DNA from: Cucumis sativus
Lineage: Eukaryota; Streptophyta; Magnoliopsida; Cucurbitales; Cucurbitaceae
NCBI RefSeq assembly: GCF_000004075.3
Contig: NW_022279561.1
Location: forward strand, 62,001 to 126,000
Reading direction: 5' to 3'
DNA: 64,000 nucleotides
Below, one piece after another: positions 24,222 through 56,424 of this stretch; the first letter of the stretch is position 1, and every line of letters begins with the position of its first letter. The notes beneath the pieces were generated by a model. It was not told the DNA's origin. It ran no database searches and worked only from the letters and a program-made list of their open reading frames with translations. The position numbers and the translations under genes were made by a program.

Positions 24222-24625
24222 TTATTGTTCTCGTTGTTGAAAATAATGACGAAAGAAGCACCCAACGACACATAAGGTACAACCTTTGTATAAAGAAACA
24301 ACAAATTATATTGAATGAAGAAAATGAAAGGGAATTTAGATTTTCCTTTCTAAAATGTTAATTAATCAAATCATTTATAGTTGATCCCACCATTTTCCAG
24401 CTGTCAACTTTAAATTCCTGGTCAATTATCAAGCGCCTAGTTTGGACTTGAGTTTTTCTGCAGTACAAACACATAAAAAATCAAAATAACTCACACAAGA
24501 AAACAAAAAAAGATTAAAAGAAATAAAAGTTGGAAGAAATAAACAACTAAATTTAATTTTCGTTAAATTTTGACACATGAAATTTTTGCCTCGCAACTAA
24601 AACTGACCACACACAATAAAATTAA

Positions 24626-24952
24626 CTATTGTCTTGATATAACAAAAAAAAAAAAAAAAAAACCATTTCTCCAGAGATTGAAGACAATACCAACAACTTC
24701 ATTTTTCATGCAATCTTTATCACATATAGGATCACACAAATCGTTAGCAACGCCTTTTGTCGTGCATGTTTTCTTGCACGTTTCTACACATGATTTGTAT
24801 TGAGGCTCTAGATTGGATATTTCGTTAAACAAAGTATTAGATTTCCTCTCAATCTCAGCATCCCTTTCAGCGGTCATGTGTGCCTTAGAGAATTGCAGTG
24901 ATCCCACCACAACAATGGACATAAAGAAAACAATCGTAATGGTTTTTGCCAT
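24626..24952 (-). CDS. Ole e 6-like secreted six-Cys peptide, copy 1
   Basis: Small secreted protein. Signal peptide MAKTITIVFFMSIVVV...FSKA (about 24 residues), then a charged segment (AERDAEIERKSNTLFNEI) and a six-cysteine core: CVETCKKTC, TTKGVANDL, CDPICDKDC. The spacing C-x3-C-x3-C-x9-C-x3-C-x3-C is exactly that of olive pollen allergen Ole e 6 (recalled sequence), whose core folds as two helices held by three disulfides. The pre-Cys segment is longer than in Ole e 6. Single exon. The open frame runs into an A19/T19 homopolymer (24644-24662) that encodes a Phe run and ends VISRQ; a splice or alternative end just before that tract is possible. Likely pollen-expressed by family; function unknown. 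A TATA box lies about 80 bases upstream. Confidence 0.72.
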   Translation of the reverse strand: MAKTITIVFFMSIVVVGSLQFSKAHMTAERDAEIERKSNTLFNEISNLEPQYKSCVETCKKTCTTKGVANDLCDPICDKDCMKNEVVGIVFNLWRNGFFFFFFVISRQ

Positions 24953-25031
24953 TTTTTAGTTTTATCTTTTAGTAATTAAGCCTACTTTTTTCCCTTATGG
25001 CTTTATCGTATGAGAAAACGAGGGAAGACCA

Positions 25032-25038
25032 TTTTATA
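25032..25038 (-). promoter_or_regulatory. TATA box of the Ole e 6-like gene (copy 1)
   Basis: On the minus strand GCTATAAAATGG, 80 bases before the ATG at 24952. The same box at the same distance is kept in every unit: 31199-31205, 37415-37421, 45556-45562 and 51754-51760. So all five copies, including the frameshifted copy 2, keep a core promoter. Confidence 0.6.
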
Positions 25039-26049
25039 GCAATTTTCGTTGTTAAATTTAGATCATTGAGCGAAAAGTAGGTTTTTATCTCTCTATAAAT
25101 ATTTGTAACAAGTGGTGAATATTTGTTTGTTCTCTAAAAACCAGTTTTTGTTCCTTAATTAACACGTGAATAGAGGAAGAAATGGTAACGATAGCAAATA
25201 AAATGTCGGTGTTGACTAAATATGGTGTCTCAATTTAAAGGAGATCAATCAAAATAATGAAAACATATGTAGCTTAGATCGAGTGTGTAAACTCAAAGGT
25301 AAGGTTGACATTAATTTTATGGTTTCACGAACAAATAATTGATGTGGATAAATTAGCTTTACCAAACAATAAAATTATACTAATTATTTCGAAGCAGTCT
25401 TAATTATGTTGTAAAAAAACAGAAAGAAAGAAAGAAAGAAAAAAGGCGTGGTTTAATAGAGAGTGCAACGAGTCAATTATATAGAATTTAAACACCCATG
25501 ACAAAAATAATCATAAACATACCTCAAACCCCCTATTTATTGAAGGCATTAATATGATTTAAATTTGACACAAAATAAAATACAAAAAAGTATCATTCCT
25601 CTTCTCAGCACTTCAAACACTCAACACACATACACACATATAGGCTGCAACATATAATTATTAACACAAAAACCCACAAACATTGTTTTATTTAAAAAGA
25701 TAACTTTGGTTTTCAAGGAGCGACACCATGAAGCTTAGTTTATATCGGTCCCAATACAATGGACATCAATAATCGTGGCTTCTTTCGGTTTGAAGTCAAT
25801 GAGTTTTAAGCAAATTTGGCAAATTAACTTGGATTTGAATTTTATAGCGATATCAAATTCTTTTAGAATATCATCCCCTAAAATCATGACTAACATAAAT
25901 TCAATATTTTCAAATTATTTATAGTCATCAATATTTATTTTATGAGTTGAATTGAAAATTTGCGTTGAAATATCTCCAAATTTTGAATTTAGAATTATAT
26001 TCATCCCTAAAATCGTGCATTTAACATAATAACAACTTGAAATTAAGAT

Positions 26050-29000
26050 TTTTATGGGACGTTGTTTTTTTAATTACATTAATATTTAATTTTATTTTCA
26101 TTTGGCAGGATATTTCTGGTTTGCCTACGACTTTCTTTTACGGTTGAGTTGCTTTTCTTTTACTGTTATCATTTAGCGTTATGTGTCATGGCACTACAAC
26201 GTGTGAAGACTACGTTCGATGGAAGATGGATTGGATTTTCCAATATATTGACTACCACGTGGTTGATGTAAATGTTCCATGTTCATCTTCGTATTAAGAA
26301 TTTATACAATGCATTCAAGGTAGACTTTTCCATCTTCAGATCTTTCTGTATATCGGTTGACTCTTTATTTAGTACGGATGCAACAATTCAAACCTTGGCT
26401 TGTTCGAATTGTTGAAGAAATAGACTGTATTGGCTTAAATATGTTGGTTTTTTCGAATTTTTCCAATAATGATTTAGTGGTTGTCGCCACGTGCCCGAGA
26501 TGACGTGGAGCGACCGATGTCCTCAAAAGAGTTAGTGTTTTTTTTAAAAAAAAAAACAGTCGCCACCAATCTTTTTTACGGTGTGATTGGACATCAAAAT
26601 AAAGTAAACAATTTTAAAAATATGGTCTGCGAAAAATAGAGATGAGTTCGGGAGTCATTTGTGTGTGAGGAAGGTATTAGCACCCCACAACACCCATTTA
26701 GAAAACGGTGGGCAAATTTCAAATCTCGAATTGAAAATAATTTTTTATTTATTTAAAACTAATGTCTTATTTTACCCCTCATTACTCCAATATTTAAGCA
26801 ATGATCTCATAAAATAAGTGGAATAATATTCCCTTAATTAGTCGGTATATTGAAGGAAACTTCTCACCTTAAGAAAAAGAAAAATTATTACAATTTCTCA
26901 AAGTATATCATGGGCTAGTCTTCGAATAAAGATTTTTTTTAAAATATTGATTAAATCCATTTTTTCTTGAGATCAAATTTCAGACTCCCAAAGATATTGA
27001 TCCCTCACCTTAAGAATTCTAGGAAATCGGACTCCCAAATTTCCTAGATTCCTTCATAGTATTTTTCTGTTAGCGAAATAAAAGTGTGTTGCTAAAAAAA
27101 TTGATTAGGATGACTTATGAAGTATAAATTTATATTTTAAACTTTTTTCTAAAAATAAATTAAAAATGATAGTTTCAAAGTAAAAATTTATAAACGGCTA
27201 AAGAAGAAAATTTAAGAAATGATTCAAAATTAGGTCAATAGGAAATAATGCGCAATGAAATCAAATGTATTATACAACGAATTAAGCAAGTAAGATAAGA
27301 TTTTGTTTTTTAAAAAAATATTGGGAATCAAATCTTGGACTCCCAAAGAAACGATTCCTCACCTCAAGAATTTAGAAATAACGAATTCCAGATATTTTTA
27401 ATTGCATCGTCGAATTTCTTTTAGAATGGTAAAATGTAAAGATAAATATGATGTAAGAAAAAAGAACAATTAACTGATATAAAATACCGTGGCAATATTG
27501 GTAAGCATAAAAGAAATATTCATGAATTTAATATTACATGATAATAAATATTGTGCATGCAAGAAAAATATGTTAAAATAAATAAGAAAAAAATAAAAAC
27601 CATCACCAACCAAAAAAGGATAGAAGAAAGAAAGGAAAGTTTTTTAAAAAAAATTAAAAATGATAGTTTCAAAGTAAAAATTTATTAAAACTGTCAAGTA
27701 TAACAAAACTGCAGGGGTCAAGTAAGGTTGTTTTTGTAGTAGTGCCATTACATTTTAATGTCAGATTTGAATTTTGGAAGAGGTCAAGCCGCTGTCTAGC
27801 CCTTGAATTGAAATAGTGTTTGAGAAAGCTTTGGATCATATTTTGTTGAGATTTTGCAAGTACGTAAGGTTGTATTTAATCCCTATCAATTGTTGGTTTC
27901 AAATTGTGGATGCTCAATTTGTTTTGGATGTTAGGGTTGAGTTTCAAGGGACTAAAAACCATATTGTCCTACGGTTTAAAAGCGTAAATTTATGGCGCCT
28001 TCAATTGTGATACTTAATTGGAGTTGGAAGTGACTTTTCGACTTAAGGTTGGCTTAAGTTGCGGGTACCCCCATTGTGTAAAATTTGTATTTGAAGGCTT
28101 GAGGTACTATAAAATAAAAACATCTTGGGAGTAGTTCAATTTGAGGAGTGGAGGATCAGGGTCACTGAAACATAAAATAGATTGAGTTGATATTATAGAA
28201 CGCTTTGGGATAGTTATGTCATGATCTGAACATGTGAGGATAACTTAGTGGCCTCATAAATCATTGTTTTCCTATCAAACTGAAGTAGGGAAAGCTTATG
28301 ATCCTGGAGAATTTAGTCGTTGACTGGGAGTGGTTATTTTCAAGTATTTTCTTATTAATCTATGTATGCTATTATAGTATGCCATGATTCAAAAAATTCC
28401 AATATGAGTGTTTCTTGAACTACATGTTAGAAATAATTTTAAAATATGACTTTTGGTTTCCATGTACTATTATATTTTGGAGTGAACCCGAACTTATTAA
28501 TCATGATTTAAATGACAACTGGTTTAAAAGGATACCCTTGATCTGTAATTAAAACTTGGATGGTTTGAATGGCCTCTTCTAAAAGTATGTGTCTGATCTT
28601 TCAGGACTGAAAACGACTTTACGAAAATGTATTTCTGACATGATTGACTTTTAAACATGAAATATGTGATCTTAATGAATGTTGGTGATTTACCATAAGT
28701 TATGCAAATGTGTTTTGGTAGCGCCACACCTATGGTTGTTAGGGGATTTCAAGGCTGAAAGAGGTCGTGGCCATAGATTCAGGAAGCCTGAAATAGGGAG
28801 GACGTGGATGAAGGATTGTGATTGGCTTCTAGCCTAGCTCAACCCACATGATGGATGGCTCTATGTGCACATAGGAGCGTGGATATGGGGTTGCTACTGC
28901 GGTAGTACTAAGTATGCATGAGCTCAGTTTGACCACGTGTTTTCCTGTCGATATGGATCGCGTGTGACCTATTCTCGACGTGTATTTAGTATTCTATCAT

Positions 29001-29650
29001 GCTTGGATTGGATGCAGGTTGCTACTGTGGCAGATACTAAATGCGTGAGCTTAGTCTAGTCGCGTGTGTTTATTTGTGGATATGGATATCGTGTGAGCTA
29101 TTATCAGGTCGTGTATTTAGTATTCTACCATGGTTGGTTGGATGGATGTCGCTATTGTGGCAAGTACTAAATGTACTCGAGCTTGTTTTGCCACGTGATT
29201 TTTCTTGATCGTTTGCGAGCTATTATTAATTCGATCGTATATTTAGGCGCTCTGCTATGGCCGTCATATGGTAACTGGTTTGTTGGCAAATACTTGCGAT
29301 TTATCGTAATATGTGATAGGACGTTTCAATTATTAATTCATTATCGATTCCTTATTTAAACAGTTGTTAGAGTATGTTTACGAGCTTTAATTCTAAAAGA
29401 AATAGAGAAAAACAGTTTCAATGTATATACTTAAGTTTTATATATATTGTAGCATGGGGTGGTTAGAAGTGGCGATTGTAACATTATGGCATGTATTTGA
29501 GAGATCTCTTAGTGGACTGTAATTCCTCTGTAACTAAATTCCTTGTTTGGATATAAACTCTTATTGAGACTCTAGACTAGCTTGGATGAGTGTGTAGACG
29601 CACTCAATGCGGTTATGAGCTGAAAATTATAATTAAGTATAGAATTCTCT
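26050..29650 (+). mobile_element. Probable retrotransposon-derived block, unit 1
   Basis: Fossil sequence with no intact coding domain. 26555-26700 has the wording gtcgccaccaatctttttta, then ggtgtgattggacatc, then gaggaaggtattagcacccc. I associate this with the untranslated/LTR region of Ty3/gypsy Tat/Ogre-type elements (recalled, not searched). It also holds degenerate ~130-bp subrepeats (28890-29262). No terminal repeats or target duplication are visible, so ends are set by where similarity to the array flanks stops. Old: present in all four full units and heavily decayed. Confidence 0.4.
28890..29262 (+). repeat. Three degenerate ~130-bp tandem subrepeats
   Basis: Copies start at 28890 (gttgctactgcggtag), 29018 (gttgctactgtggcag) and 29148 (gtcgctattgtggcaag). 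Each continues through tactaa..., a cacgtg- or cgcgtg-like word, gagctatt and tatttag. The same triple lies in units 2, 3 and 4 (from about 35093, 43221 and 49430). Such subrepeats are common in LTR/UTR parts of retroelements. Confidence 0.8.
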
Positions 29651-29846
29651 TTAAACTCTTTTATCACTTTCTCTACCTTCAATGTCAAACCACTCACTTT
29701 CTCTCTCATTCCTCTCTATTTTTCCCATTCACCATATATATACCCACAAACAAGCTCTAATTTACAGTGTTAAAATAATTTAATTTTGATTAATGAATTC
29801 ATTTTAAAACAAAAACATGAAAATCAAATCTAAAATATAAACAAAC

Positions 29847-29948
29847 CTCTGCTCCTTCATTGTCCGCCATTAACTCATCTTCTTCTAAATTCCTCTTAGC
29901 ATTTGATCCTAATATATTATTGAAGAGATGTCTTGTTTGATGATACAT
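29847..29948 (-). other. Conserved 34-codon open stretch ending at a GT donor
   Basis: On the minus strand an ATG at 29948 opens MYHQTRHLFNN, ILGSNAKRNLEEDELM, ADNEGAE and stops exactly at a GTTTGT splice-donor-like site. It recurs with identical length (102 bases) at 36160-36059, 44292-44191 and 50498-50397. It could be a first exon copied with the unit, but no downstream exon was found and I do not recognise the peptide. It may be chance. Confidence 0.25.
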
Positions 29949-30900
29949 TTTTTTTGCAAAACCCCCATTGAATAAACTAATGAATTCTTAACCCTACCTG
30001 TTCAATTTTTAAATTTCTCCCTTCATATATTCCTCACCAATTTCCTAATTTTCTCAACCCATCTCCTCCTCTCCATTTTCTCTTCTTTTTTTTTCCCATC
30101 GAAACACAATTTTTCTCTTGACAATCTGAAATACCAATTCAAAATAAACTTATCTCATAATTGTAATTATAAAAAAAAGCAATAAAACATATCTATAACC
30201 ACAAACTTCATCTCTTTTATAATATATCAAAAACTATCGAGGGAGATTGACCAAACACACATGTGACAAAACTGCTCGCAACTTGAATAATAATGTGATA
30301 TATTCACAAAATTTCTTCTACACGGTAGGATTATATGATAAATGTAAAACGCATAAATAATTATGTGAATAAACACAAAAGGCGTAAATAAACTTTATTG
30401 ATCTCGTTGTTGAAAATAATGACGAAAGAAGCACCCAACGACACATAAGGTAGAACCTTTGTATAAAGAAACAACAAATTATATTGAATGAAGAAAATGA
30501 AAGGGAATTTAGATTTTCCTTTCTAAAATGTTAATTAATCAAATCATTTATAGTTGATCCCACCATTTTCCAGCTGTCAACTTTAAATTCCTGGTCAATT
30601 ATCAAGCGCCTAGTTTGGACTTGAGTTTTTCTGCAGTACAAACACATAAAAAATCAAAAATCACACAAGAAAACAAAAAAAGATTAAAAGAAATAAAAGT
30701 TGGAAGAAATAAACAACTAAATTTAATTTTGTTAAATTTTGACACATGAAATTTTTGCCTCGCAACTAAAACTGACCACACACAATAAAATTAACTATTG
30801 TCTTGATATAACAAAAAAAAAAAAAAAAAAACCATTTCTCCAGAGATTGAAGACAATACCAACAACTTCATTTTTCATGCAATCTTTATCACATATAGGA

Positions 30901-31119
30901 TCACACACAAATCGCAACGCCTTTTGTCGTGCATGTTTTCTTGCACGTTTCTACACATGATTTGTATTGAGGCTCTAGATTGGATATTTCGTTAAACAAA
31001 GTATTAGATTTCCTCTCAATCTCAGCATCCCTTTCAGCGGTCATGTGTGCCTTAGAGAATTGCAGTGATCCCACCACAACAATGGACATAAAGAAAACAA
31101 TCGTAATGGTTTTTGCCAT
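30901..31119 (-). pseudogene. Ole e 6-like peptide, copy 2, frameshifted
   Basis: Identical to the other copies from the signal peptide through CVETCKKTCTTKGVA, then out of frame. The + strand reads cacacacaaatcgcaacgcc where the others read cacacaaatcgttagcaacg: one CA added and four bases lost, net -2. The product ends after ICV and lacks the last three of six cysteines, so the disulfide core cannot form. TATA box (31199-31205) and the downstream sequence are intact, so this is either a young pseudogene or an assembly error. Unlike most indels in this window it is a compound change, which favours a real mutation. Confidence 0.7.
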
Positions 31120-32212
31120 TTTTTAGTTTTATCTTTTAGTAATTAAGCCTACTTTTTTCCCTTATGGCTTTATCGTATGAGAAAACGAGGGAAGACCATT
31201 TTATAGCAATTTTCGTTGTTAAATTTAGATCATTGAGCGAAAAGTAGGTTTTTATCTCTCTATAAATATTTGTAACAAGTGGTGAATATTTGTTTGTTCT
31301 CTAAAAACCAGTTTTTGTTCCTTAATTAACACGTGAATAGAGGAAGAAATGGTAACGATAGCAAATAAAATGTCGGTGTTGACTAAATATGGTGTCTCAA
31401 TTTAAAGGAGATCAATCAAAATAATGAAAACATATGTAGCTTAGATCGAGTGTGTAAACTCAAAGGTAAGGTTGACATTAATTTTATGGTTTCACGAACA
31501 AATAATTGATGTGGATAAATTAGCTTTACCAAACAATAAAATTATACTAATTATTTCGAAGCAGTCTTAATTATGTTGTAAAAAAACAGAAAAGAAAGAA
31601 AGAAAGAAAAAAGGCGTGGTTTAATAGAGAGTGCAACGAGTCAATTATATAGAATTTAAACACCCATGACAAAAATAATCATAAACATACCTCAAACCCC
31701 CTATTTATTGAAGGCATTAATATGATTTAAATTTGACACAAAATAAAATACAAAAAAGTATCATTCCTCTTCTCAGCACTTCAAACACTCAACACACATA
31801 CACACATATAGGCTGCAACATATAATTATTAACACAAAAACCCACAAACATTGTTTTATTTAAAAAGATAACTTTGGTTTTCAAGGAGCGACACCATGAA
31901 GCTTAGTTTATATCGGTCCCAATACAATGGACATCAATAATCGTGGCTTCTTTCGGTTTGAAGTCAATGAGTTTTAAGCAAATTTGGCAAATTAACTTGG
32001 ATTTGAATTTTATAGCGATATCAAATTCTTTTAGAATATCATCCCCTAAAATCATGACTAACATAAATTCAATATTTTCAAATTATTTATAGTCATCAAT
32101 ATTTATTTTATGAGTTGAATTGAAAATTTGCGTTGAAATATCTCCAAATTTTGAATTTAGAATTATATTCATCCCTAAAATCGTGCATTTAACATAATAA
32201 CAACTTGAAATT

Positions 32213-35200
32213 AAGATTTTTATGGGACGTTGTTTTTTTAATTACATTAATATTTAATTTTATTTTCATTTGGCAGGATATTTCTGGGTTTGCCTACGAC
32301 TTTCTTTTACGGTTGAGTTGCTTTTCTTTTACTGTTATCATTTAGCGTTATGTGTCATGGCACTACAACGTGTGAAGACTACGTTCGATGGAAGATGGAT
32401 TGGAATTTTCCAATATATTGACTACCACGTGAGTTTGATGTAAATGTTCCATGTTCATCTTCGTATTAAGAATTTATACAATGCATTCAAGGTAGACTTT
32501 TCCCATCTTCAGATCTTTCTGTATATCGGTTGACTCTTTATTTAGTACGGATGCAACAATTCAAACCTTGGCTTGTTCGAATTGTTGAAGAAATAGACTG
32601 TATTGGCTTAAATATGTTGGTTTTTTCGAATTTTTCCAATAATGATTTAGTGGTTGTCGCCACGTGCCCGAGATGACGCGGAGCGACCGATGTCCTCAAA
32701 AGAGTTAGTGTTTTTTTAAAAAAGAAAAACAGTCGCCACCAATCTTTTTTACGGTGTGATTGGACATCAAAATAAAGTAAACAGTTTTAAAAATATGGTC
32801 TGCGAAAAATAGAGATGAGTTCGGGAGTCATTTGTGTGTGAGGAAGGTATTAGCACCCCACAACACCCATTTAGAAAACGGTGGCAAATTTCAAATCTCG
32901 AATTGAAAATAATTTTTTATTTATTTTAAAACTAATGTCTTATTTTACCCCTCATTACTCCAATATTTAAGCAATGATCTCATAAAATAAGTGGAATAAT
33001 ATTCCCTTAATTAGTCGGTATATTGAAGGAAACTTCTCACCTTAAGAAAAAGAAAAATTATTACAATTTCTCAAAGTATATCATGGGCTAGTCTTCGAAT
33101 AAAGATTTTTTTTAAAATATTGATTAAATCCATTTTTTTCATGAGATAAAATTTCAGACCCCCAAAGATATTGATCCCTCACCTTAAGAATTCTAGGAAA
33201 TCGGACTCCCAAATTTCCTAGATTCCTTCATAGTATTTTTCTGTTAGCAAAATAAAAGTGTGTTGCTAAAAAAATTGATTAGGATGACTTATGAAGTATA
33301 AATTTATATTTTAAACTTTTTTCTAAAAATAAATTAAAAATGATAGTTTCAAAGTAAAAATTTATAAACGGCTAAAGAAGAAAATTTAAGAAATGATTCA
33401 AAATTAGGTCAATAGGAAATAATGCGCAATGAAATCAAATGTATTATACAACGAATTAAGCAAGTAAGATAAGATTTTGTTTTTTAAAAAAATATTGGGA
33501 ATCAAATCTTGGACTCCCAAAGAAACGATTCCCTCACCTCAAGAATTTAGAAATAACGAATTCCAGATATTTTTAATTGCATCGTCGAATTTCTTTTAGA
33601 ATGGTAAAATGTAAAGATAAATATGATGTAAGAAAAAAGAACAATTAACTGATATAAAATACCGTGGCAATATTGGTAAGCATAAAAGAAATATTCATGA
33701 ATTTAATATTACATGATAATAAATATTGTGCATGCAAGAAAAATATGTTAAAATAAATAAGAAAATAAATAAAAACCATCACCAACCAAAAAAGGATAGA
33801 AGAAAGAAAGGAAAGTTTTTAAAAAAAAATTAAAAATGATAGTTTCAAAGTAAAAATTTATTAAAACTGTCAAGTATAACAAAACTGCAGGGGTCAAGTA
33901 AGGTTGTTTTTGTAGTAGTGCCATTACATTTTAATGTCAGATTTGAATTTTGGAAGAGGTCAAGCCGCTGTCTAGCCCACTTGAATTGAAATAGTGTTTG
34001 AGAAAGCTTTGGATCAATTTTGTTGAGATTTTGCAAGTACGTAAGGTTGTATTTAATCCCTATCAATTGTTGGTTTCAAATTGTGGATGCTCAATTTGTT
34101 TTGGATGTTAGGGTTGAGTTTCAAGGGACTAAAAACCATATTGTCCCACGGTTTAAAAGCGTAAATTTATGGCGCCTTCAATTGTGATACTTAATTGGAG
34201 TTGGAAGTGACTTTTCGACTTAAGGTTGGCTTAAGTTGCGGGTACCCCCATTGTGTAAAAATTTTGTATTTGAAGGCTTGAGGGATGTAGGATAAAATCT
34301 ATGCTAAAAATAAGGCATCTTGGGAGTAGTTCAATTTGAGGAGTGGAGGATCAGGGTCACTGAAACATAAAATAGCTTGAGTTGATATTATAGAACGCTT
34401 TGGGGATAGTTATGTCATGATCTGAACATGTGAGGATAACTTAGTGGCCTGATAAATCATTGTTTTCATATCAATCTGAAGTAGGGAAAGCTTATGATCG
34501 TGGAGAATTTAGTCGTTGACTGGGAGTGGGTTATTTTCAAGTATTTTCTTATTAATCTATGTATGCTATTATAGTATGCCATGATTTCAAAAAATTCCAA
34601 TATGAGTGTTTCTTGAACTACATGTTAGAAATAATTTTAAAATATGACTTTTGGTTTCCATGTACTCTTATATTTTGGAGCGAACCCGAACTTATTAATC
34701 ATGATTTAAATGACAACTGGTTTAAAAGGATACCCCTTGATCTGTAATTAAACTTGGATGGTTTGAATGGCCTCTTCTAAAAGTATGTGTCTGATCTTTC
34801 AGGACTGAAAACGACTTTACGAAAATGTATTTCTGACCATGATTGACTTTTAAACATGAAATATGTGATCCTAATGAATGTTGGTGATTTACCCATAAGT
34901 TATGCAAATGTGTTTTGGTAGCGCCACACCTATGGTTGTTAGGGGATTTCAAGGCTGAAAGAGGTCGTGGCCAGAGATTCAGGAGCCTGAGAATAGGTGA
35001 GGACGTGGATGAAGGATTGTGATTGGCTTCTAGCCTAGCTCAACCCACATGATGGATGGCTCTATGTGCACATAGGAGCGTAGATATGGGGGTTGCTACT
35101 ACGGTAGGTACTAAGTATGCATGAGCTCAGTTTGACCACGTGTTTTCCTGTCGATATGGATCGCGTGTGAACTATTCTCGACCGTGTATTTAGTATTCTA

Positions 35201-35861
35201 TCATGCTTGGATTGGATGCAGGTTGCTACTGTGGCAGATACTAAATATGCGTGAGCTTAGTCTAGTCGCGTGTTTATTTGTGGATATGGATATCGTGTGA
35301 GCTATTATCGGTCGTGTATTTAGTATTCTACCATGGTTGGTTGGATGGATGTCGCTATTGTGGCAAGTACTAAATGTACTCGAGCTTGTTTTGCCACGTG
35401 ATTTTTCTTGATCGTTTGCGAGCTATTATTATCTCGACCGTATATTTAGGCGCTCTGCTATGGCCGACCCTCATATGGTACTGGTTTGTTGGCAAATACT
35501 TGCGATTTATCGTAATATGTGATAGTGACGTTTCAATTATTAATTCATTATCGATTCCTTATTTAAACAGTTGTTAGAGTATGTTTACGAGCTTTAATTC
35601 TAAAAGAAATAGAGAAAAACAGTTTCAATGTATATACTTAAGTTTTATATATATTGCAGCATGGGGTGGTTAGAAGTAGCGATTGTAAATTATGGCATGT
35701 ATTTGAGAGATCTCTTAGTGGACTGTAATTCCTCTGTAACTAAATTCCTTGTTTGGATATAAACTCTTATTGAGACTCTAGACTAGCTTGGATGAGTGTG
35801 TATGAGACGCACTCAATGCGGTTATGAGTCTGAAGATTATAATTAAGTATAGAATTCTCTT
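32213..35861 (+). mobile_element. Probable retrotransposon-derived block, unit 2
   Basis: Unit 2 copy of the 26050-29650 block, with the same gtcgccaccaatc wording (about 32731) and three subrepeats (from about 35093). Fossil; no intact coding domain. Confidence 0.4.
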
Positions 35862-41200: not shown

Positions 41201-43134
41201 AGGACTGTTGGAATTTTTTGTCCTAAAACTCGTAGTTTATAAATCATATTCTATTCAATAAAGTTGTTATTGAGAAATTAAATATTATAATCTTAAATCC
41301 AATAAATCAAAGTTCCAAGGCTATTTTTTGAATAAACTTGAACTTTATGTGTAAACATAAACGTGGATCAAGTTCGAGTATATAGCCTAAATAGTCTATA
41401 GTATATGAAATAAAGGTTGGGCGCCTTATTTTGAGAGACTATGGATGCGGCCCACTTTGTAGTACAAACGATGTGATCCTAATCGTTCATGTAGAGACAT
41501 GAAAGTGGGGCATCCTATGTAAAATGTTTACATAAGACTGAACCATGAATTAGTCATTTTTACGTTATAACACCGTTTACTGTTTAAAACTGACTATCTC
41601 AATTATTGATGACCTAGGTAACTTAGTCTTAATCCTGAGTTAACTATGAACTCCTGTTCATACAAGATTATCCTTAGATCTGCATAGGTGAGGGCAGCTC
41701 ATCAGCGTTGGCCCAATAAGCCTCCCATTTCAGGAGTAAGATCGGGTGGATAGCTGGGAACATAGGGTACAAGATGGAATTCACTCCTACCCGCTTTAGG
41801 GTTAGTAGATAGGTTGCTCTCTTAAGCACTGAATCCAAGTCTTGAACAAGGGGCCCCACCCTCTCATTGGCCCGAGAGGGATTAAGTTTATAGGTTGAAC
41901 CTTAAACCAATTGTTCAATAGTGGATTAGTGGGACTTAAGGAGCAAGATGTAATCTTGGGGGTAAAACGGTATTTTGACCCAGCCAAGGTTACGAGCAAC
42001 CTGTGAAGGATTAACTTACTGATTATGGTTTTATCAAATGGACACAAATATATCTATAGTGAGGGGAGTGCAACTACGGGACTTTAGTGGAATGACCCGT
42101 TAGTTAACGAATGTTGATTAACTCGGTTTAAAAGAGTTTAGCTAGTTAATCTTGAATCGTTGGAGCCCATGATCTATAGGTCCATTAGGTTCCTCTGCTA
42201 GCTCATATGGATTAAACTTAGAACAGTGTGATGAAATAAGTCGAATTGTTCGAATAGGGAGAAGAAAGGAAAACCGACATATACAGTGATATAATCGTCG
42301 GTCTTCTAATTAGAAATAGAGCTTTATGTTTTACATACTATAAGTATGAATGCGGATTCATACTAAGAAGCTCGGAATTGGTCAAAAATAGTAAAAAGTC
42401 AAAATGTTGACTTTGACTTTGAAAAGTCAAACTTTGACCGGCCTTATATTCAAATGTGATTTGAATTTTGGAAAAATGAATGCGGATTCATGCTCGAGAG
42501 GTTGGAATTAGTCAAGACGGACAAAATGGTAAAAAGTCAAAATATTGACTTTTGACTTAGAAAAGTCAAAGTTTGACTTTTGACTAGAAAAATCTAATGA
42601 CCATTTTACCCTTGGACTAAGTTAGTGGGAAAATCCAACATTTTGTTGGATAATCCCACTAACTCTTAGTGGGATATGTGGCTATATGAGATATAGACAC
42701 CTAGCCCACTAAGTTCCACTAATTGTTAGTGGAATATTAGGTGTTGAGATTTGGCAATTGAATTGCATGCATTTTTGCATGTAATTAGGCTATAAATAGA
42801 GATGTTTTCAAATGTTGAAGGACTTTTGCCTCTTTTATCATTTTCATCATCTCAACAAAAGAAAAAAGAAAGCTTCCAATCTCATTTTATCTCCATTATT
42901 TTCTACACCAAAATTGGGTCCCACAACCCGGTTCTTTGTCCAGAGGATAGCAGTTGAGTACTAGTGGTGGTCTCGGGTAGAATTGGTAAGAAGACATCAA
43001 ACCTTTTGAAAGCTTCAAAGGTAATACTTCTTAAAACCCTAATTTGATTAGTTTATGGTTACATGTTAATTGTGGCAATTAGGGTAGAAATTCGATTCTT
43101 TTTCCGCTGTGCATGACTTAGTTCTATCAAGGAC
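41201..43134. repeat. 5-bp target-site duplication AGGAC around the solo LTR
   Basis: AGGAC at 41201-41205 and again at 43130-43134. The uninterrupted units read aggtgaggacgtggatgaagg with a single copy at this place, so the empty site is directly visible in units 2 and 4. Confidence 0.95.
41206..43129 (+). mobile_element. Solo LTR, probably Ty1/copia (1,924 bp)
   Basis: Starts TGTTGGAATTTTTTGTCC and ends GACTTAGTTCTATCA (TG...CA), flanked by a perfect 5-bp duplication. No internal region or coding domain, so it is a solo LTR left by LTR-LTR recombination. A TATA box, ctataaatagaga, lies at 42790-42802, as expected for the U3 promoter, and there are repeated TTGAC words around 42390-42590. 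The terminal sequence and length recall Angela/Tork-type copia LTRs (recalled, not searched). Young: present in only one unit of the array, so it post-dates the copying of that unit. Confidence 0.88.
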
Positions 43135-45143
43135 GTGGATGAAGGATTGTGATTGGCTTCTAGCCTAGCTCAACCCACATGATGGATGGCTCTATGTGCA
43201 CATAGGAGCGTGGATATGGCGGTTGCTACTGCGGTAGGTACTAAGTATGCATGAGCTCAGTTTGACCACGTGTTTTCCTGTCGATATGGATCGCGTGTGA
43301 ACTATTCTCGACCGTGTATTTAGTATTCTATCATGCTTGGATTGGATGCAGGTTGCTACTGTGGCAGATACTAAATATGCGTGAGCTTAGTCTAGTCGCG
43401 TGTTTATTTGTGGATATGGATATCGTGTGAGCTATTATCGGTCGTGTATTTAGTATTCTACCATGGTTGGTTGGATGGATGTCGCTATTGTGGCAAGTAC
43501 TAAATGTACTCGAGCTTGTTTTGCCACGTGATTTTTCTTGATCGTTTGCGAGCTATTATTATCTCGACCGTATATTTAGGCGCTCTGCTATGGCCGACCC
43601 TCATATGGTACTGGTTTGTTGGCAAATACATGCGATTTATCGTAATATGTGATAGTGACGTTTCAATTATTAATTCATTATCGATTCCTTATTTAAACAG
43701 TTGTTAGAGTATGTTTACGAGCTTTAATTCTAAAAGAAATAGAGAAAAACAGTTTCAATGTATATACTTAAGTTTTATATATATTGTAGCATGGGGTGGT
43801 TAGAAGTAGCGATTGTAACATTATGGCATGTATTTGAGAGATCTCTTAGTGGACTGTAATTCCTCTGTAACTAAATTCCTTGTTTGGATATAAACTCTTA
43901 TTGAGACTCTAGACTAGCTTGGATGAGTGTGTATGAGACGCACTCAATGCGGTTATGAGTCTGAAGATTATAATTAAGTATAGAATTCTCTTTTAAACTC
44001 TTTTATCACTTTCTCTACCTTCAATGTCAAACCACTCACTTTCTCTCTCATTCCTCTCTATTTTTCCCATTCACCATCAGTATATACCCACAAACAAGCT
44101 CTAATTTACAGTGTTAAAATAATTTAATTTTGATTAATGAATTCATTTTAAAACAAAAACATGAAAATCAAATCTAAAATATAAACAAACCTCTGCTCCT
44201 TCATTGTCCGCCATTAACTCATCTTCTTCTAAATTCCTCTTAGCATTTGATCCTAATATATTATTGAAGAGATGTCTTGTTTGATGATACATTTTTTTGC
44301 AAAACCCCCATTGAAATAAACTAATGAATTCTTAACCCTACCTGTTCAATTTTTTCTAAATTTCTCCTTCATATATTCCTCACCAATTTCCTAATTTTCT
44401 CAACCCATCTCCTCCTCTCCATTTTCTCTTCTTTTTTTTTTCCATCCAAACACAATTTTTCTCTTGACAATCTGAAATACCAATTCCAAATAAACTTATC
44501 TCATAATTGTAATTATAAAAAAAAGCAATAAAACATATCTATAACCACAAACTTCATCTCTTTTATAATATATCAAAAACTACCGAGGGAGATTGACCAA
44601 ACACACATGTGACAAAACTGCTCGCAACTTGAATAATAATGTGATATATTCACAAAATTTCTTCTACACGGTAGGATTATATGATAAATGTAAAACGCAT
44701 AAATAATTATGTGAATAAACACAAAAGGCGTAAATAAATTTATTGATCTCGTTGTTGAAAATAATGACGAAAGAAGCACCCAACGACACATAAGGTAGAA
44801 CCTTTGTATAAAGAAACAACAAATTATATTGAATGAAGAAAATGAAAGGGAATTTAGATTTTGCTTTCTAAAATGTTAATTAATCAAATCATTTATAGTT
44901 GATCCCACCATTTTCCAGCTGTCAACTTTAAATCCATGGTCAATTATCAAGCGCCTAGTTTGGACTTGAGTTTTTCTGCAATACAAACACAAAAAAAATC
45001 AAAATAACTCACACAAGAAAACAAAAAAAGATTAAAAGAAATAAAAGTTGGAAGAAATAAACAACTAAATCTAATTTTCGTTAAATTTTGACACATGAAA
45101 TTTTTGCCTCGCAACTAAAACTGACCACACACAATAAAATTAA

Positions 45144-45476
45144 CTATTGTCTTGATATAACAAAAAAAAAAAAAAAAAAAAAAAAACCATTTCTCCAGAG
45201 ATTGAAGACAATACCAACAACTTCATTTTTCATGCAATCTTTATCACATATAGGATCACACAAATCGTTAGCAACGCCTTTTGTCGTGCATGTTTTCTTG
45301 CACGTTTCTACACATGATTTGTATTGAGGCTCTAGATTGGATATTTCGTTAAACAAAGTATTAGATTTCCTCTCAATCTCAGCATCCCTTTCAGCGGTCA
45401 TGTGTGCCTTAGAGAATTGCAGTGATCCCACCACAACAATGGACATAAAGAAAACAATCGTAATGGTTTTTGCCAT
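45144..45476 (-). CDS. Ole e 6-like secreted six-Cys peptide, copy 4
   Basis: Same protein as copy 1 up to the homopolymer, which is 25 bases here (45162-45186), the longest in the array. It adds two Phe relative to copy 1 and returns to the VISRQ end. Signal peptide and all six cysteines intact. TATA at 45556-45562. Copies 1 and 4 also share the 'aataactcacacaag' variant in the 3' flank. Confidence 0.72.
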   Translation of the reverse strand: MAKTITIVFFMSIVVVGSLQFSKAHMTAERDAEIERKSNTLFNEISNLEPQYKSCVETCKKTCTTKGVANDLCDPICDKDCMKNEVVGIVFNLWRNGFFFFFFFFVISRQ

Positions 45477-46569
45477 TTTTTAGTTTTATCTTTTAGTAAT
45501 TAAGCCTACTTTTTTCCCTTATGGCTTTATCGTATGAGAAAACGAGGGAAGACCATTTTATAGCAATTTTCGTTGTTAAATTTAGATCATTGAGCGAAAA
45601 GTAGGTTTTTATCTCTCTATAAATATTTGTAACAAGTGGTGAATATTTGTTTGTTCTCTAAAAACCAGTTTTTGTTCCTTAATTAACACGTGAATAGAGG
45701 AAGAAATGGTAACGATAGCAAATAAAATGTCGGTGTTGACTAAATATGGTGTCTCAATTTAAAGGAGATCAATCAAAATAATGAAAACATATGTAGCTTA
45801 GATCGAGTGTGTAAACTCAAAGGTAAGGTTGACATTAATTTTATGGTTTCACGAACAAATAATTGATGTGGATAAATTAGCTTTACCAAACAATAAAATT
45901 ATACTAATTATTTCGAAGCAGTCTTAATTATGTTGTAAAAAAACAGAAAAGAAAGAAAGAAAGAAAAAGGCGTGGTTTAATAGAGAGTGCAACGAGTCAA
46001 TTATATAGAATTTAAACACCCATGACAAAAATAATCATAAACATACCTCAAACCCCCTATTTATTGAAGGCATTAATATGATTTAAATTTGACACAAAAT
46101 AAAATACAAAAAAGTATCATTCCTCTTCTCAGCACTTCAAACACTCAACACACATACACACATATAGGCTGCAACATATAATTATTAACACAAAAACCCA
46201 CAAACATTGTTTTATTTAAAAAGATAACTTTGGTTTTCAAGGAGCGACACCATGAAGCTTAGTTTATATCGGTCCCAATACAATGGACATCAATAATCGT
46301 GGCTTCTTTCGGTTTGAAGTCAATGAGTTTTAAGCAAATTTGGCAAATTAACTTGGATTTGAATTTTATAGCGATATCAAATTCTTTTAGAATATCATCC
46401 CTAAAATCATGACTAACATAAATTCAATATTTTCAAATTATTTATAGTCATCAATATTTATTTTATGAGTTGAATTGAAAATTTGCGTTGAAATATCTCC
46501 AAATTTTCAATTTAGAATTATATTCATCCCTAAAATCGTGCATTTAACATAATAACAACTTGAAATTAA

Positions 46570-49500
46570 GATTTTTATGGGACGTTGTTTTTTTAATTAC
46601 ATTAATATTTAATTTTATTTTCATTTGGCAGGATATTTCTGGGTTTGCCTACGACTTTCTTTTACGGTTGAGTTGCTTTTCTTTTACTGTTATCATTTAG
46701 CGTTATGTGTCATGGCACTACAACGTGTGAAGACTACGTTCGATGGAAGATGGATTGGAATTTTCCAATATATTGACTACCACGTGGTTGATGTAAATGT
46801 TCCATGTTCATCTTCGTATTAAGAATTTATACAATGCATTCAAGGTAGACTTTTCCAATCTTCAGATCTTTCTGTATATCGGTTGACTCTTTATTTAGTA
46901 CGGATGCAACAATTCAAACCTTGGCTTGTTGGAATTGTTGAAGAAATAGACATGTATTGGCTTAAATATTTTTTCGAATTTTTCCAATAATGATTTAGTG
47001 GTTGTCGCCACGTGCCCGAGATGACGCGGAGCGACCGATGTCCTCAAAAGAGTTAGTTTTTTTTAAAAAAGAAAAACAGTCGCCACCAATCTTTTTTACG
47101 GTGTGATTGGACATCAAAATAAAGTAAACAGTTTTAAAAATATGGTCTGCGAAAAATAGAGATGAGTTCGGGAGTCATTTGTGTGTGAGGAAGGTATTAG
47201 CACCCCACAACACCCATTTAGAAAACGGTGGCAAATTTCAAATCTCGAATTGAAAATAATTTTTTATTTATTTTAAAACTAATGTCTTATTTTACCCCTC
47301 ATTACTCCAATATTTAAGCAATGATCTCATAAAATAAGGAATAATATTCCCTTAATTAGTCGGTATATTGAAGGAAACTTCTCACCTTAAGAAAAAGAAA
47401 AATTATTACAATTTCTCAAAGTATATCATGGGCTAGTCTTCGAATAAAGATTTTTTTAAAATATTGATTAAATCCATTTTTTCTTGAGATCAAATTTCAG
47501 ACTCCCAAAGATATTGATCCCTCACCTTAAGAATTCTAGGAAATCGGACTCCCAAATTTCCTAGATTCCTTCATAGTATTTTTCTGTTAGCGAAATAAAA
47601 GTGTGTTGCTAAAAAAATTGATTAGGATGACTTATGAAGTATAAATTTATATTTTAAACTTTTTTCTAAAAATAAATTAAAAATGATAGTTTCAAAGTAA
47701 AAATTTATAAACGGCTAAAGAAGAAAATTTAAGAAATGATTCAAAATTAGGTCAATAGGAAATAATGCGCAATGAAATCAAATGTATTATACAACGAATT
47801 AAGCAAGTAAGATAAGATTTTGTTTTTTAAAAAAATATTGGGAATCAAATCTTGGACTCCCAAAGAAACGATTCCCTCACCTCAAGAATTTAGAAATAAC
47901 GAATTCCAGATATTTTTAATTGCATCGTCGAATTTCTTTTAGAATGGTAAAATGTAAAGATAAATATGATGTAAGAAAAAAGAACAATTAACTGATATAA
48001 AATACCGTGGCAATATTGGTAAGCATAAAAGAAATATTCATGAATTAATATTACATGATAAAAATATTGTGCATGCAAGAAAAATATGTTAAAATAAATA
48101 AGAAAATAAATAAAAACCATCACCAACCAAAAAAGGATAGAAGAAAGAAAGGAAGTTTTTTAAAAAAAAATTAAAAATGATAGTTTCAAAGTAAAAATTT
48201 ATTAAAACTGTCAAGTATAACAAAACTGCAGGGTCAAGTAAGGTTGTTTTTGTAGTAGTGCCATTACATTTTAATGTCAGATTTGAATTTTGGAAGAGGT
48301 CAAGCCGCTGTCTAGCCCACTTGAATTGAAATAGTGTTTGAGAAAGCTTTGGATCAATTTTGTTGAGATTTTGCAAGTACGTAAGATTGTATTTAATCCC
48401 TATCAATTGTTGGTTTCAAATTGTGGATGCTCAATTTGTTTTGGATGTTAGGGTTGAGTTTCAAGGGACTAAAAACCATATTGTCCTACGGTTTAAAGCG
48501 TAAATTTATGGTGCCTTCAATTGTGATACTTAATTGGAGTTGGAAGTGACTTTTCGACTTAAGGTTGGCTTAAGTTGCGGGTACCCCCATTGTGTAAAAA
48601 TTTTGTATTTGAAGGCTTGAGGGATGTAGGATAAAATCTATGCTAAAAATAAGGCATCTTGGGAGTAGTTCAATTTGAGGAGTGGAGGATCAGGGTCACT
48701 GAAACATAAAATAGCTTGAGTTGATATTATAGAACGCTTTGGGGATAGTTATGTCATGATCTGAACATGTGAGGATAACTTAGTGGCCTCATAAATCATT
48801 GTTTTCATATCAATCTGAAGTAGGGAAAGCTTATGATCGTGGAGAATTTAGTCGTTGACTGGGAGTGGGTTATTTTCAAGTATTTTCTTATTAATCTATG
48901 TATGCTATTATAGTATGCCATGATTTCAAAAAATTCCAATATGAGTGTTTCTTGAACTACATGTTAGAAATAATTTTAAAATATGACTTTTGGTTTCCAT
49001 GTACTCTTATATTTTGGAGCGAACCCGAACTTATTAATCATGATTTAAATGACAACTGGTTTAAAAGGATACCCCTTGATCTGTAATTAAACTTGGATGG
49101 TTTGAATGGCCTCTTCTAAAAGTATGTGTCTGATCTTTCAGGACTGAAAACGACTTTACGAAAATGTATTTCTGACCATGATTGACTTTTAAACATGAAA
49201 TATGTGATCTAATGAATGTTGGTGATTTACCCATAAGTTATGCAAATGTGTTTTGGTAGCGCCACACCTATGGTTGTTAGGGGATTTCAAGGCTGAAATA
49301 GGTCGTGGCCAGAGATTCAGGAGCCTGAGAATAGGTGAGGACGTGGATGAAGGATTGTGATTGGCTTCTAGCCTAGCTCAACCCACATGATGGATGGCTC
49401 TATGTGCACATAGGAGCGTAGATATGGGGTTGCTACTACGGTAGGTACTAAGATGCATGAGCTCAGTTTGACCACGTGTTTTCTATCGATATTGGATCGC

Positions 49501-50195
49501 GTCGTGAACTATTCTCGACCGTGTATTTAGTATTCTATCATGCTTGGATTGGATGCAGGTTGCTACTGTGGCAGATACTAAATATGCGTGAGCTTAGTCT
49601 AGTCGCGTGTTTATTTGTGGATTATGGATATCGTGTGAGCTATTATCGGTCGTGTATTTAGTATTCTACCATGGTTGGTTGGATGGATGTCGCTATTGTG
49701 GCAAGTACTAAATGTACTCGAGCTTGTTTTGCCACGTGATTTTTCTTGATCGTTTGCGAGCTATTATTATCTCGACCGTATATTTAGGCGCTCTGCTATG
49801 GCCGACCCTCATATGGTACTGGTTTGTTGGCAAATACTTGCGATTTATCGTAATATGTGATAGTGACGTTTCAATTATTAATTCATTATCGATTCCTTAT
49901 TTAAACAGTTGTTAGAGTATGTTTACGAGCTTTAATTCTAAAAGAAATAGAGAAAAACAGTTTCAATGTATATACTTAAGTTTTATATATATTGCACATG
50001 GGGTGGTTAGAAGTAGCGATTGTAAATTATGGCATGTATTTGAGAGATCTCTTAGTGGACTGTAATTCCTCTGTAACTAAATTCCTTGTTTGGATATAAA
50101 CTCTTATTGAGACTCTAGACTAGCTTGGATGAGTGTGTATGAGACGCACTCAATGCGGTTATGAGTCTGAAGATTATAATTAAGTATAGAATTCT
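46570..50195 (+). mobile_element. Probable retrotransposon-derived block, unit 4
   Basis: Unit 4 copy of the 26050-29650 block, with the gtcgccaccaatc wording (about 47078) and three subrepeats (from about 49430). Fossil; no intact coding domain. Confidence 0.4.
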
Positions 50196-50944
50196 CTTTT
50201 AAACTCTTTTATCACTTTCTCTACCTTCAATGTCAAACCACTCACTTTCTCTCTCATTCCTCTCTATTTTTCCCATTCACCATCAGTATATACCCACAAA
50301 CAAGCTCTAATTTACAGTGTTAAAATAATTTAATTTTGATTAATGAATTCATTTTAAAACAAAAACATGAAAATCAAATCTAAAATATAAACAAACCTCT
50401 GCTCCTTCATTGTCCGCCATTAACTCATCTTCTTCTAAATTCCTCTTAGCATTTGATCCTAATATATTATTGAAGAGATGTCTTGTTTGATGATACATTT
50501 TTTTGCAAAACCCCCAATAATAAACTAATGAATTCTTAACCCTACCTGTTCAATTTTTTCTAAATTTCTCCCTTCATATATTCCTCACCAATTTCCTAAT
50601 TTTCTCAACCCATCTCCTCCTCTCCATTTTCTCTTCTTTTTTTTTCCATCCAAACACAATTTTTCTCTTGACAATCTGAAATACCAATTCAAAATAAACT
50701 TATCTCATAATTGTAATTATAAAAAAAAGCAATAAAACATATCTATAACCACAAACTTCATCTCTTTTATAATATATCAAAAACTACCGAGGGAGATTGA
50801 CCAAACACACATGTGACAAAACTGCTCGCAACTTGAATAATAATGTGATATATTCACAAAATTTCTTCTACACGGTAGGATTATATGATAAATGTAAAAC
50901 GCATAAATAATTATGTGAATAAACACAAAAGGCGTTAATAAACT

Positions 50945-52755
50945 TTATTGATCTCGTTGTTGAAAATAATGACGAAAGAAGCACCCAACGACACATAAGG
51001 TAGAACCTTTGTATAAAGAAACAACAAATTATATTGAATGAAGAAAATGAAAGGGAATTTAGATTTTCCTTTCTAAAATGTTAATTAATCAAATCATTTA
51101 TAGTTGATCCCACCATTTTCCAGCTGTCAACTTTAAATTCCTGGTCAATTATCAAGCGCCTAGTTTGGACTTGAGTTTTTCTGCAGTACAAACACATAAA
51201 AAATCAAAAACTACCACACAAGAAAACAAAAAAAGATTAAAAGAAATAAAAGTTGGAAGAAATAAACAACTAAATTTAATTTTCGTTAAATTTTGACACA
51301 TGAAATTTTTGCCTCGCAACTAAAACTGACCACACACAATAAAATTAACTATTGTCTTGATATAACAAAAAAAAAAAAAAAAAACCATTTCTCCAGAGAT
51401 TGAAGACAATACCAACAACTTCATTTTTCATGCAATCTTTATCACATATAGGATCACACAAATCGTTAGCAACGCCTTTTGTCGTGCATGTTTTCTTGCA
51501 CGTTTCTACACATGATTTGTATTGAGGCTCTAGATTGGATATTTCGTTAAACAAAGTATTAGATTTCCTCTCAATCTCAGCATCCCTTTCAGCGGTCATG
51601 TGTGCCTTAGAGAATTGCAGTGATCCCACCACAACAATGGACATAAAGAAAACAATCGTAATGGTTTTTGCCATTTTTTAGTTTTATCTTTTAGTAATTA
51701 AGCCTACTTTTTTCCCTTATGGCTTTATCGTATGAGAAAACGAGGGAAGACCATTTTATAGCAATTTTCGTTGTTAAATTTAGATCATTGAGCGAAAAGT
51801 AGGTTTTTATCTCTCTATAAATATTTGTAACAAGTGGTGAATATTTGTTTGTTCTCTAAAAACCAGTTTTTGTTCCTTAATTAACACGTGAATAGAGGAA
51901 GAAATGGTAACGATAGCAAATAAAATGTCGGTGTTGACTAAATATGGTGTCTCAATTTAAAGGAGATCAATCAAAATAATGAAAACATATGTAGCTTAGA
52001 TCGAGTGTGTAAACTCAAAGGTAAGGTTGACATTAATTTTATGGTTTCACGAACAAATAATTGATGTGGATAAATTAGCTTTACCAAACAATAAAATTAT
52101 ACTAATTATTTCGAAGCAGTCTTAATTATGTTGTAAAAAAACAGAAAAGAAAGAAAGAAAGAAAAAAGGCGTGGTTTAATAGAGAGTGCAACGAGTCAAT
52201 TATATAGAATTTAAACACCCATGACAAAAATAATCATAAACATACCTCAAACCCCCTATTTATTGAAGGCATTAATATGATTTAAATTTGACACAAAATA
52301 AAATACAAAAAAGTATCATTCCTCTTCTCAGCACTTCAAACACTCAACACACATACACACATATAGGCTGCAACATATAATTATTAACACAAAAACCCAC
52401 AAACATTGTTTTATTTAAAAAGATAACTTTGGTTTTCAAGGAGCGACACCATGAAGCTTAGTTTATATCGGTCCCAATACAATGGACATCAATAATCGTG
52501 GCTTCTTTCGGTTTGAAGTCAATGAGTTTTAAGCAAATTTGGCAAATTAACTTGGATTTGAATTTTATAGCGATATCAAATTCTTTTAGAATATCATCCC
52601 CTAAAATCAGTATTTTCAAATTATTTATAGTCATAAATATTTATTTTATGAGTTGAATTGAAAAGTTACATTGAAATATCTTCAAATTTTGAATTTAGAA
52701 TTATATTCTTTCCTAAAATCGTGCATTTAACGTAATAACCACTAGAAATCAAGTT
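50945..52755. repeat. Tandem array unit 5, partial (~1.8 kb)
   Basis: Holds only the Ole e 6-like gene block. It matches the other units closely to about 52609, lacks about 18 bases present in the others there, continues as clearly diverged similarity to about 52755, and then shares nothing. The 3.6 kb retro-derived block is absent, so this is the right edge of the array. Confidence 0.93.
51345..51674 (-). CDS. Ole e 6-like secreted six-Cys peptide, copy 5
   Basis: Same protein as copies 1, 3 and 4 up to the homopolymer (18 bases, 51367-51384), ending LLYQDNS as in copy 3. Signal peptide and six-cysteine core intact. TATA at 51754-51760. It sits at the array edge, so its far upstream region (beyond 52755) differs from that of the other copies and it could be regulated differently. 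Confidence 0.72.
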   Translation of the reverse strand: MAKTITIVFFMSIVVVGSLQFSKAHMTAERDAEIERKSNTLFNEISNLEPQYKSCVETCKKTCTTKGVANDLCDPICDKDCMKNEVVGIVFNLWRNGFFFFFLLYQDNS

Positions 52756-56402: not shown

Positions 56403-56424
56403 ATATATATATATATATATATAT
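56403..56424. repeat. (AT)n microsatellite
   Basis: Eleven AT units in the 3' flank of the 55612 gene. Confidence 0.85.

Follow-up and report, generated by a model that had tools for sequence, protein, structure and literature searches.

A cucumber tandem array of Ole e 6-like peptide genes with a probable Pack-CACTA-like repeat unit

In plants, small secreted cysteine-rich peptides are often encoded in fast-changing tandem clusters, which are usually ascribed to unequal crossing-over. The array described here lies on Cucumis sativus contig NW_022279561.1 (assembly GCF_000004075.3), in a 64,000-bp window (contig positions 62,001 to 126,000) whose own positions serve as coordinates throughout, and consists of ~6.2-kb units that each carry one gene for an Ole e 6-like peptide. 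Such peptides have been grouped with cysteine-rich peptides in tomato, in a source whose available part calls their role unknown (PMC8198727). Two described systems come closest to the array. Pack-CACTA and other Pack-TYPE elements resemble the cucumber unit in being non-autonomous and CACTA-ended and in holding host gene sequence, as far as the accessible parts of the sources go (PMC13317346, PMC8903248). For Pack-CACTA capture, the consulted part of a review gives a proposed mechanism that involves tandem neighbours and complementary terminal deletions, and credits it to Catoni et al. 2019 (PMC13317346). The cucumber copies include some that recall this scheme, those on C1, C3 and C5 being without the far end and that on C2 without the CACTA end (C denotes contigs of the assembly, C59 being that of the window and C1-C7, C57 and C67 others). 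In contrast to the mostly fragmentary genes in the accessible part of the review (PMC13317346), the cucumber unit holds a whole gene with its intron and upstream region; it also differs in that a second inverted terminus was not found in the unit, and in being amplified head to tail with a single base separating the copies. The maize P1-wr locus, known as an array of eleven 12-kb repeats, likewise has near-identical, gene-bearing units of several kilobases placed head to tail, but its unit is not described, in the part of the source available, as a mobile element that also occurs in dispersed copies (PMC2686159).

We conclude, with a probability of roughly 0.7, that the cucumber unit is a non-autonomous, CACTA-derived, Pack-CACTA-like element harbouring a complete Ole e 6-like gene of two exons plus the region upstream of it, and that this element was dispersed and then joined into an array. 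What seems an ordinary gene cluster is most likely an amplified whole gene carried by a transposon, a variant of Pack-CACTA-like gene capture, with no fixed copy number in the assembly. The original prediction for this DNA was right about an Ole e 6-like peptide and recent amplification and wrong about a single exon and a homopolymer; the CACTA terminus, the dispersed relatives and the four versions of the locus went unmentioned. A limited search of open-licence PMC literature turned up no report that we recognised as an Ole e 6 amplification or as a gene of this type borne by a CACTA element.

Self-BLASTN of the window places the array at 24221-52760, as four ~6.2-kb units and a further 1.8 kb with one peptide gene per unit (unit starts at 24221, 30394, 36607, 44739 and 50944; the final partial copy ends at 52760), which confirms the predicted repeat of four units plus a partial copy. 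All five gene copies in the window are on the minus strand. The count of five genes given earlier holds for the window, but copy 2 is frameshifted and other versions of the locus hold 2 or 6. Numbered in gene-sense orientation, the unit spans S1-6203 (6203 bp) with the gene at S2791-3311, and the array reads S1688-6203, three times S1-6203 and finally S1-3519. The third unit is 1.9 kb longer owing to a solo-LTR-like insert (LTR, long terminal repeat; Table 1). Identity is 98.5% over 10.8 and 9.7 kb in the two longest matching pairs, and independent window copies differ by substitution at 52/6153, 7/3514 and 20/3519 aligned bases (0.20-0.85%), which supports the claim of recent amplification or homogenisation; the insert-bearing copy, compared over part of its length, has 17 substitutions in 2680 bases.

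Full units begin with G-CACTACTACAAAAACAACC in gene-sense orientation, and the CACTA terminus CACTACTACAAAAAC is present at 4/4 unit starts in the window. The unit-to-unit joint is TAATG-G-CACTA, head to tail, with one extra base between copies. We searched the assembly (226,625,048 bases in 88 contigs, at least six of them large, at 24.8-40.9 Mb; C1-C7 would correspond to the cucumber chromosomes) with a 28-nt terminal motif, allowing up to three mismatches. This gave 98 matches, 16 of them in the four versions of the array locus and 82 elsewhere, against 0 for the reversed pattern. Two CACTA ends form an inverted pair at C1:18227020 and C1:18230736, with AAT at both sides. On C3:19147400-19177441, eight CACTA ends on one strand with ~4.29-kb spacing may mark a further tandem array, of units with CACTA ends.

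Six single relatives with a match to the gene are found on C1-C6, the one at C4 8.57 Mb being called C4b; the gene is broken in those on C5 and C6. C4b has an exact CACTA end followed by a ~1.48-kb stretch foreign to the unit, and this stretch has relatives of its own, at least five of which adjoin CACTA ends defined by the motif. An older copy lies at C3 14.53 Mb, where the matches listed skip exon 1. Comparison of the outer flanks of the single copies gave one long match, of 1050 bp between C4b and C6 and inside the fuller element; the others measure 33-103 bp. We take the unrelated outer flanks as evidence for dispersal by transposition.

Two of the sites have empty counterparts, that on C3 from a genome-wide search and that on C1 from alignment to an LTR. 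The rejoined flanks of the C3 copy gave 16 genome matches, of which 13 cross the junction in other repeats, two are the locus itself and one is elsewhere; a 3-bp duplication, AAA, stands on both sides of this copy. The C1 copy is inside an LTR related to the insert in the window, with flanks that meet at LTR positions 412/413 and TAG on both sides. Its 3′ flank resumes at LTR 413 as a firm match (E 7e-10 and 3e-27), and its 5′ flank ends at LTR 412 beside the CACTA end, in an alignment (67%, E 0.10) that is weak alone and collinear to the last base. The support that these sequences lend to an empty site thus appears strong for C3 and weaker for C1.

Several observations would also be accounted for if a native gene had simply been duplicated in tandem at its own locus, with segmental duplications as the dispersed copies and the CACTA end as an incidental insertion at the unit edge. 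A gene 40-49% identical has its own tandem array, here array B, ~220 kb away on C4, Ole e 6-like genes cluster on C6 too, and an array of this general kind is known from maize P1-wr. However, the copies on C1, C3 and C5 start exactly at the CACTA end, C4b represents a fuller form, the outer flanks are unrelated and two sites have empty counterparts, and we consider local duplication unlikely. Under transposition, to which the CACTA end in 4/6 single copies, the unrelated flanks and the two empty sites point, the element would have moved to several chromosomes with its gene. The far end would have been lost in some copies, most simply through incomplete repair after excision. We also considered the whole unit as an LTR element, which is ruled out because the unit has no long terminal direct repeats and the common end is the CACTA motif. 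The shared unit end presumably resembles neither a long interspersed nuclear element nor a Helitron.

Several observations weigh against a CACTA-derived element. An adjacent 3-bp duplication is seen in 2/4 CACTA-ended copies (C1 and C3), while C5 needs 5 extra bases and C4b has none; the chance of one 3-bp match is ~0.023. In the flanks read, the far side of the dispersed copies showed no CACTA end in inverted orientation, and the other end of the unit is CATTAC versus CACTAC, alike at 5/6 bases. The CACTA end is missing from 2/6 single copies (C2 and C6), and the far ends vary between copies (S4300, S4591, S4865, S5814/S5815 and S6203). Since a second inverted terminus was not found, we do not file the unit as a complete CACTA element, although it works like one.

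The anatomy of the unit, from searches of the genome with stretches of it (the best 40 scored candidates taken), resembles that of Pack-type elements. S107-1261 has dispersed relatives at 84-88% among the matches listed, two of which (C1:31.65 Mb and C5:15.29 Mb) adjoin relatives of the CACTA-end stretch of C4b. The gene region, S2125-3899, matches array B (C4:3.16-3.20 Mb) in 69-76% pieces, and S4523-5123 matches another dispersed repeat, again among the matches listed. Thus the middle matches array B and both sides match dispersed repeats, so that a host gene region appears bracketed by repeat-derived sequence. In the 9.7 kb of array B that was read CACTACTAC was not found, and two CACTACAA words occur inside array-B genes. 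Capture of a host gene is suggested by these gene relatives, array B and the paralogues, which were seen without a CACTA end, the paralogues in a motif scan only. Array B comprises seven matches at C4:3.159-3.201 Mb and two on C67:78-85 kb, each with an Ole e 6-like gene 40-49% identical. Its spacings on C4 are ~6.45-6.49 kb (four) and ~7.6-7.7 kb (two), with a ~182-bp satellite within the unit.

The peptide gene itself is predicted to have two exons. The donor GTTGTTG|GTATTG and the acceptor TGTAYTGCAG|AA are found in 5/5 window copies, and splicing in silico removes a phase-1 intron of 229-239 nt that contains the poly-T and gives the exon junction TTGTTG|AAAAACTC. The donor position is the same in 6/6 Pfam-positive paralogues (L001-L006), and five of the six stretches printed, all but that of L004, show the acceptor. 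On these splice signals we reject the predicted single-exon gene with a variable C-terminus. Copies 1, 3, 4 and 5 spliced in silico encode one identical 96-aa protein ending in ...DCMKNEVVEKLKSKLGA. The four copies had been said to share their peptide up to a C-terminal homopolymer; they are indeed identical, the C-terminus included, and the "homopolymer" is the intronic poly-T. The C-terminal tail is, we assume, much like that of Ole e 6 beyond the aligned part. Copy 2 has a net loss of 2 nt, and its frameshift may be a consensus error. Across the genome we counted 22 unbroken exon-1 copies at ≥93% identity, to which copy 2 of C59, the C5 copy (stop inside) and the C6 copy (split) are to be added.

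The cysteine spacing of the peptide, C-x3-C-x3-C-x9-C-x3-C-x3-C, is that of Ole e 6, as predicted, and the unspliced open reading frame (ORF) of copy 3 aligns to Ole e 6 (PDB 1ss3) over 38 residues without a gap (E=1.2e-4). Against the Ole e 6 profile PF09253 the spliced protein scores 25.1 bits (E=1.7e-5), under the gathering cut-off of 27.7, and we therefore use the label "Ole e 6-like"; the proposed profile check thus gave a significant E-value and a score below the cut-off. The unspliced ORFs 1, 3, 4 and 5 score 23.3 bits, and truncated ORF 2 has no PF09253 match. TIL (15.6 bits) and C_tripleX (13 bits) are weak further profile matches of the spliced protein. Six loci of the genome exceed the PF09253 cut-off; the array peptide matches five of them at E≤0.002 (best 6e-6) and L004 at 0.147. 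Five of the above-cut-off genes are clustered on C6, three at 6.79-6.80 Mb and two at 7.04 Mb. The array peptide shares a hydrophobic N-terminus with the paralogues that pass the cut-off, and differs from the five aligned ones (L004 left out) by 11-12 extra residues ahead of the first motif cysteine. An AlphaFold model of exon 1 only has helices at 5-65 and 70-85, with a predicted local distance difference test score (pLDDT) of ~80 for residues 51-80 and a mean of 61.5, and a predicted template modelling score of 0.37. Secretion and disulfide bonding, as in Ole e 6, may be presumed for the array peptide. The Rfam search gave 0 matches.

Between copies, the coding sequence (CDS) and the rest of the unit diverge similarly (p 0.13-0.86 in 6/6 comparisons). 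Over six copies, 42/1762 aligned bases differ in the CDS versus 63/1342 in the intron, about twice as many, in an intron whose poly-T aligns poorly; this difference would count against an absence of constraint on the coding sequence. Counts of changes, which left out C5 (stop) and C6 (split frame), gave 0-2 synonymous per ~59 sites and 2-9.5 non-synonymous per ~229 in the 10 pairs of the array, C1, C2, C3 and C4b. These changes are too few, and we do not claim positive selection. The ~390 bp before the ATG have 7 differences in 1953 aligned bases (C1, C2, C3, C4b and C5), and a scan without C6 gave the lowest sliding stretch as 6/1948, from S2470. Low divergence upstream, a stretch noticed before being tested, has p 0.0008-0.011 in C2, C3, C4b and C5, with p 0.77 in C1 and p 1 in C6. 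The C6 copy, with a broken gene, is not low in this region (11/390), and C5, whose gene is also broken, is low. The upstream conservation could be due to constraint, to gene conversion or to uneven mutation.

The locus occurs in four versions in the assembly. Each of the window flanks searched (2001-6000, 19500-24220, 52761-57500 and 60001-64000) matched four places: C59 itself, C4 (2.921-2.963 Mb) and two mirrored sites on C57. Gene copies with exon 1 intact number 2 at the C4 locus, 4 on C59 (plus the frameshifted one) and 6 and 6 on C57, and the C4 version has the order ~S1710-6203, S1-3519. H25Q occurs in one C4 copy and one C57 copy. Against the query these two have 99% identity, as does a third, unread copy on the other arm of C57, and all four intact copies of C59 have 100%. 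As H25Q is absent from C59, no version is clearly complete. The mirrored versions on C57 (410 kb) are centred at ~206 kb and differ in structure in the parts of the contig read. Among the matches listed, both are interrupted by 11.2 kb within one unit, at unit position 4092, and the last full unit of arm 2 has a ~1930-bp gap at the same unit position as the LTR insert of the window.

The cucumber 9930 v3 assembly, according to the part of its description available, is of a highly inbred line, with a sub-read N50 of 10.8 kb and six pre-assemblies merged. If the genome is this assembly, redundant contigs are the simplest reading of the four versions, and the true copy number of the array is not settled by it; copy numbers from assemblies of ~11-kb reads are unreliable. 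Multiplication of few or single units by misassembly would agree with one locus appearing with 2, 5, 6 and 6 gene copies, with the differing structures of the two mirrored C57 versions and with the error-like compensating indels beside the array in the C4 version. Nevertheless, every version has at least two tandem gene copies, the edges agree where read, the window copies differ by substitutions and one by an LTR insertion, and a unit-to-unit joint is present even where the copies are fewest. An array that is wholly an artefact is therefore improbable, and the doubt expressed earlier on this point applies to the copy number, which is not fixed across versions, and not to the tandem structure.

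In the C4 version, the apparent differences at the right-edge copy (22/206 and 35/163) and right flank (88%) are not regarded as real, because the alignment shows compensating indels typical of unpolished consensus. The ~154-bp tract at the right edge, common to C59, C57 and C4, was kept as real divergence. The switch from common sequence to this tract is sharp, at 52606/52607; the C4 edge copy equals the window at 16/16 substitutions, and both C57 edge copies have 14/186 differences, the same count as the window. A sharp switch into a tract common to the versions is the signature of recombination involving an older relative. The C59 and C4 versions differ by whole units, a pattern that unequal exchange, or assembly collapse, would give.

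If the unit is a CACTA-derived element, its copies would have been joined head to tail at one C4 locus, as the junction TAATG-G-CACTA suggests. Array size would then have changed in 6.2-kb single-unit steps, most simply by unequal crossing-over, which would also keep the units near-identical. Compatible with this is a founding by rolling circle, in which a circular element served as repair template at an older relative and gave multimers in one step. The array starts inside a unit (S1688) with the odd ~154-bp tract and stops at S3519, which makes its two ends overlap like those of a linearised multimer, and the joint is head to tail with one extra base. On the other hand, no circle has been observed, and at the left end the common sequence continues right to the flank. 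A circle simply integrated through homologous recombination does not explain this edge, and hence not the two edges together; we regard a rolling circle as possible but doubtful. S3519 had also been considered as a 3′ end shared with the relic at C3:14.53 Mb, which we withdraw because that boundary is the mere start of the query.

A transposon thus appears to have taken an entire gene, its intron and upstream region included, to several chromosomes, and to have provided an array with its repeat unit. Comparison of accessions for filled and empty sites makes capture, spread and amplification testable step by step. It is a speculative, rather improbable extension that a CACTA-type vehicle spreads and multiplies a whole secreted-peptide gene and its conserved upstream region while the peptide changes freely, so that both the dose and the variety of a peptide for defence or reproduction would be tuned by transposition and by growth of the array.

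Table 1. Features of the array in window coordinates, and single relatives elsewhere in the assembly in unit numbering (S).
Feature	Position	Strand	Remark
First element copy in gene-sense order	48262..52760	-	5′-truncated (S1688-6203); self-BLASTN, unit alignment
Full-length element copy, 8136 bp	40126..48261	-	Broken by solo-LTR-like insert; CACTA end 48246-48260
Full-length element copy, 6204 bp	33922..40125	-	CACTA end, unit alignment
Full-length element copy, 6176 bp	27746..33921	-	CACTA end, unit alignment
Last element copy	24221..27745	-	3′-truncated (S1 to ~S3519); self-BLASTN, unit alignment
CACTA terminus	48246..48260	-	Same at 40110-40124, 33906-33920, 27730-27744
Solo-LTR-like insert	41206..43129	.	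TG...CA, AGGAC at both sides
Right-edge tract unlike other units	52607..52760	-	16 substitutions versus internal C4 copy after 17-bp deletion
Gene copy 1 (predicted exons)	exon 1 24691..24952, exon 2 24429..24457	-	Exon-2 end counted from 96-aa length
Gene copy 2, exon 1	30860..31119	-	Frameshifted, stop after 72 aa
Gene copy 3 (predicted exons)	exon 1 37074..37335, exon 2 36815-36843	-	
Gene copy 4 (predicted exons)	exon 1 45215..45476, exon 2 44947-44975	-	
Gene copy 5 (predicted exons)	exon 1 51413..51674, exon 2 51152-51180	-	
Upstream region, ~390 bp (copy 3 example)	37336..37726	-	Among least diverged unit stretches in 5/6 dispersed copies
Single relative C1	S1-4300		CACTA end kept
Single relative C2	S379-6203		Without CACTA end
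Single relative C3	S2-4591		CACTA end kept
Single relative C4b	S107-5814		C4 8.57 Mb; preceded by CACTA end and ~1.48 kb foreign to unit
Single relative C5	S2-4865		CACTA end kept; stop inside gene
Single relative C6	S107-5815		Also part of the extra stretch of C4b; without CACTA end; gene frame split

Outside the array, an Ole e 1-like domain (PF01190, 44.4 bits), of another family named from an olive pollen allergen, lies at 17525-17863 on the minus strand. An EIN3-like DNA-binding domain extends over two overlapping frames at 13886-14993 (profile positions 9-142 and 160-251), as a pseudogene or through a consensus error. The left flank also holds pieces of a DUF630/DUF632 gene at 2553-5391 (minus strand) and a piece of an acyl-CoA oxidase at 115-564.

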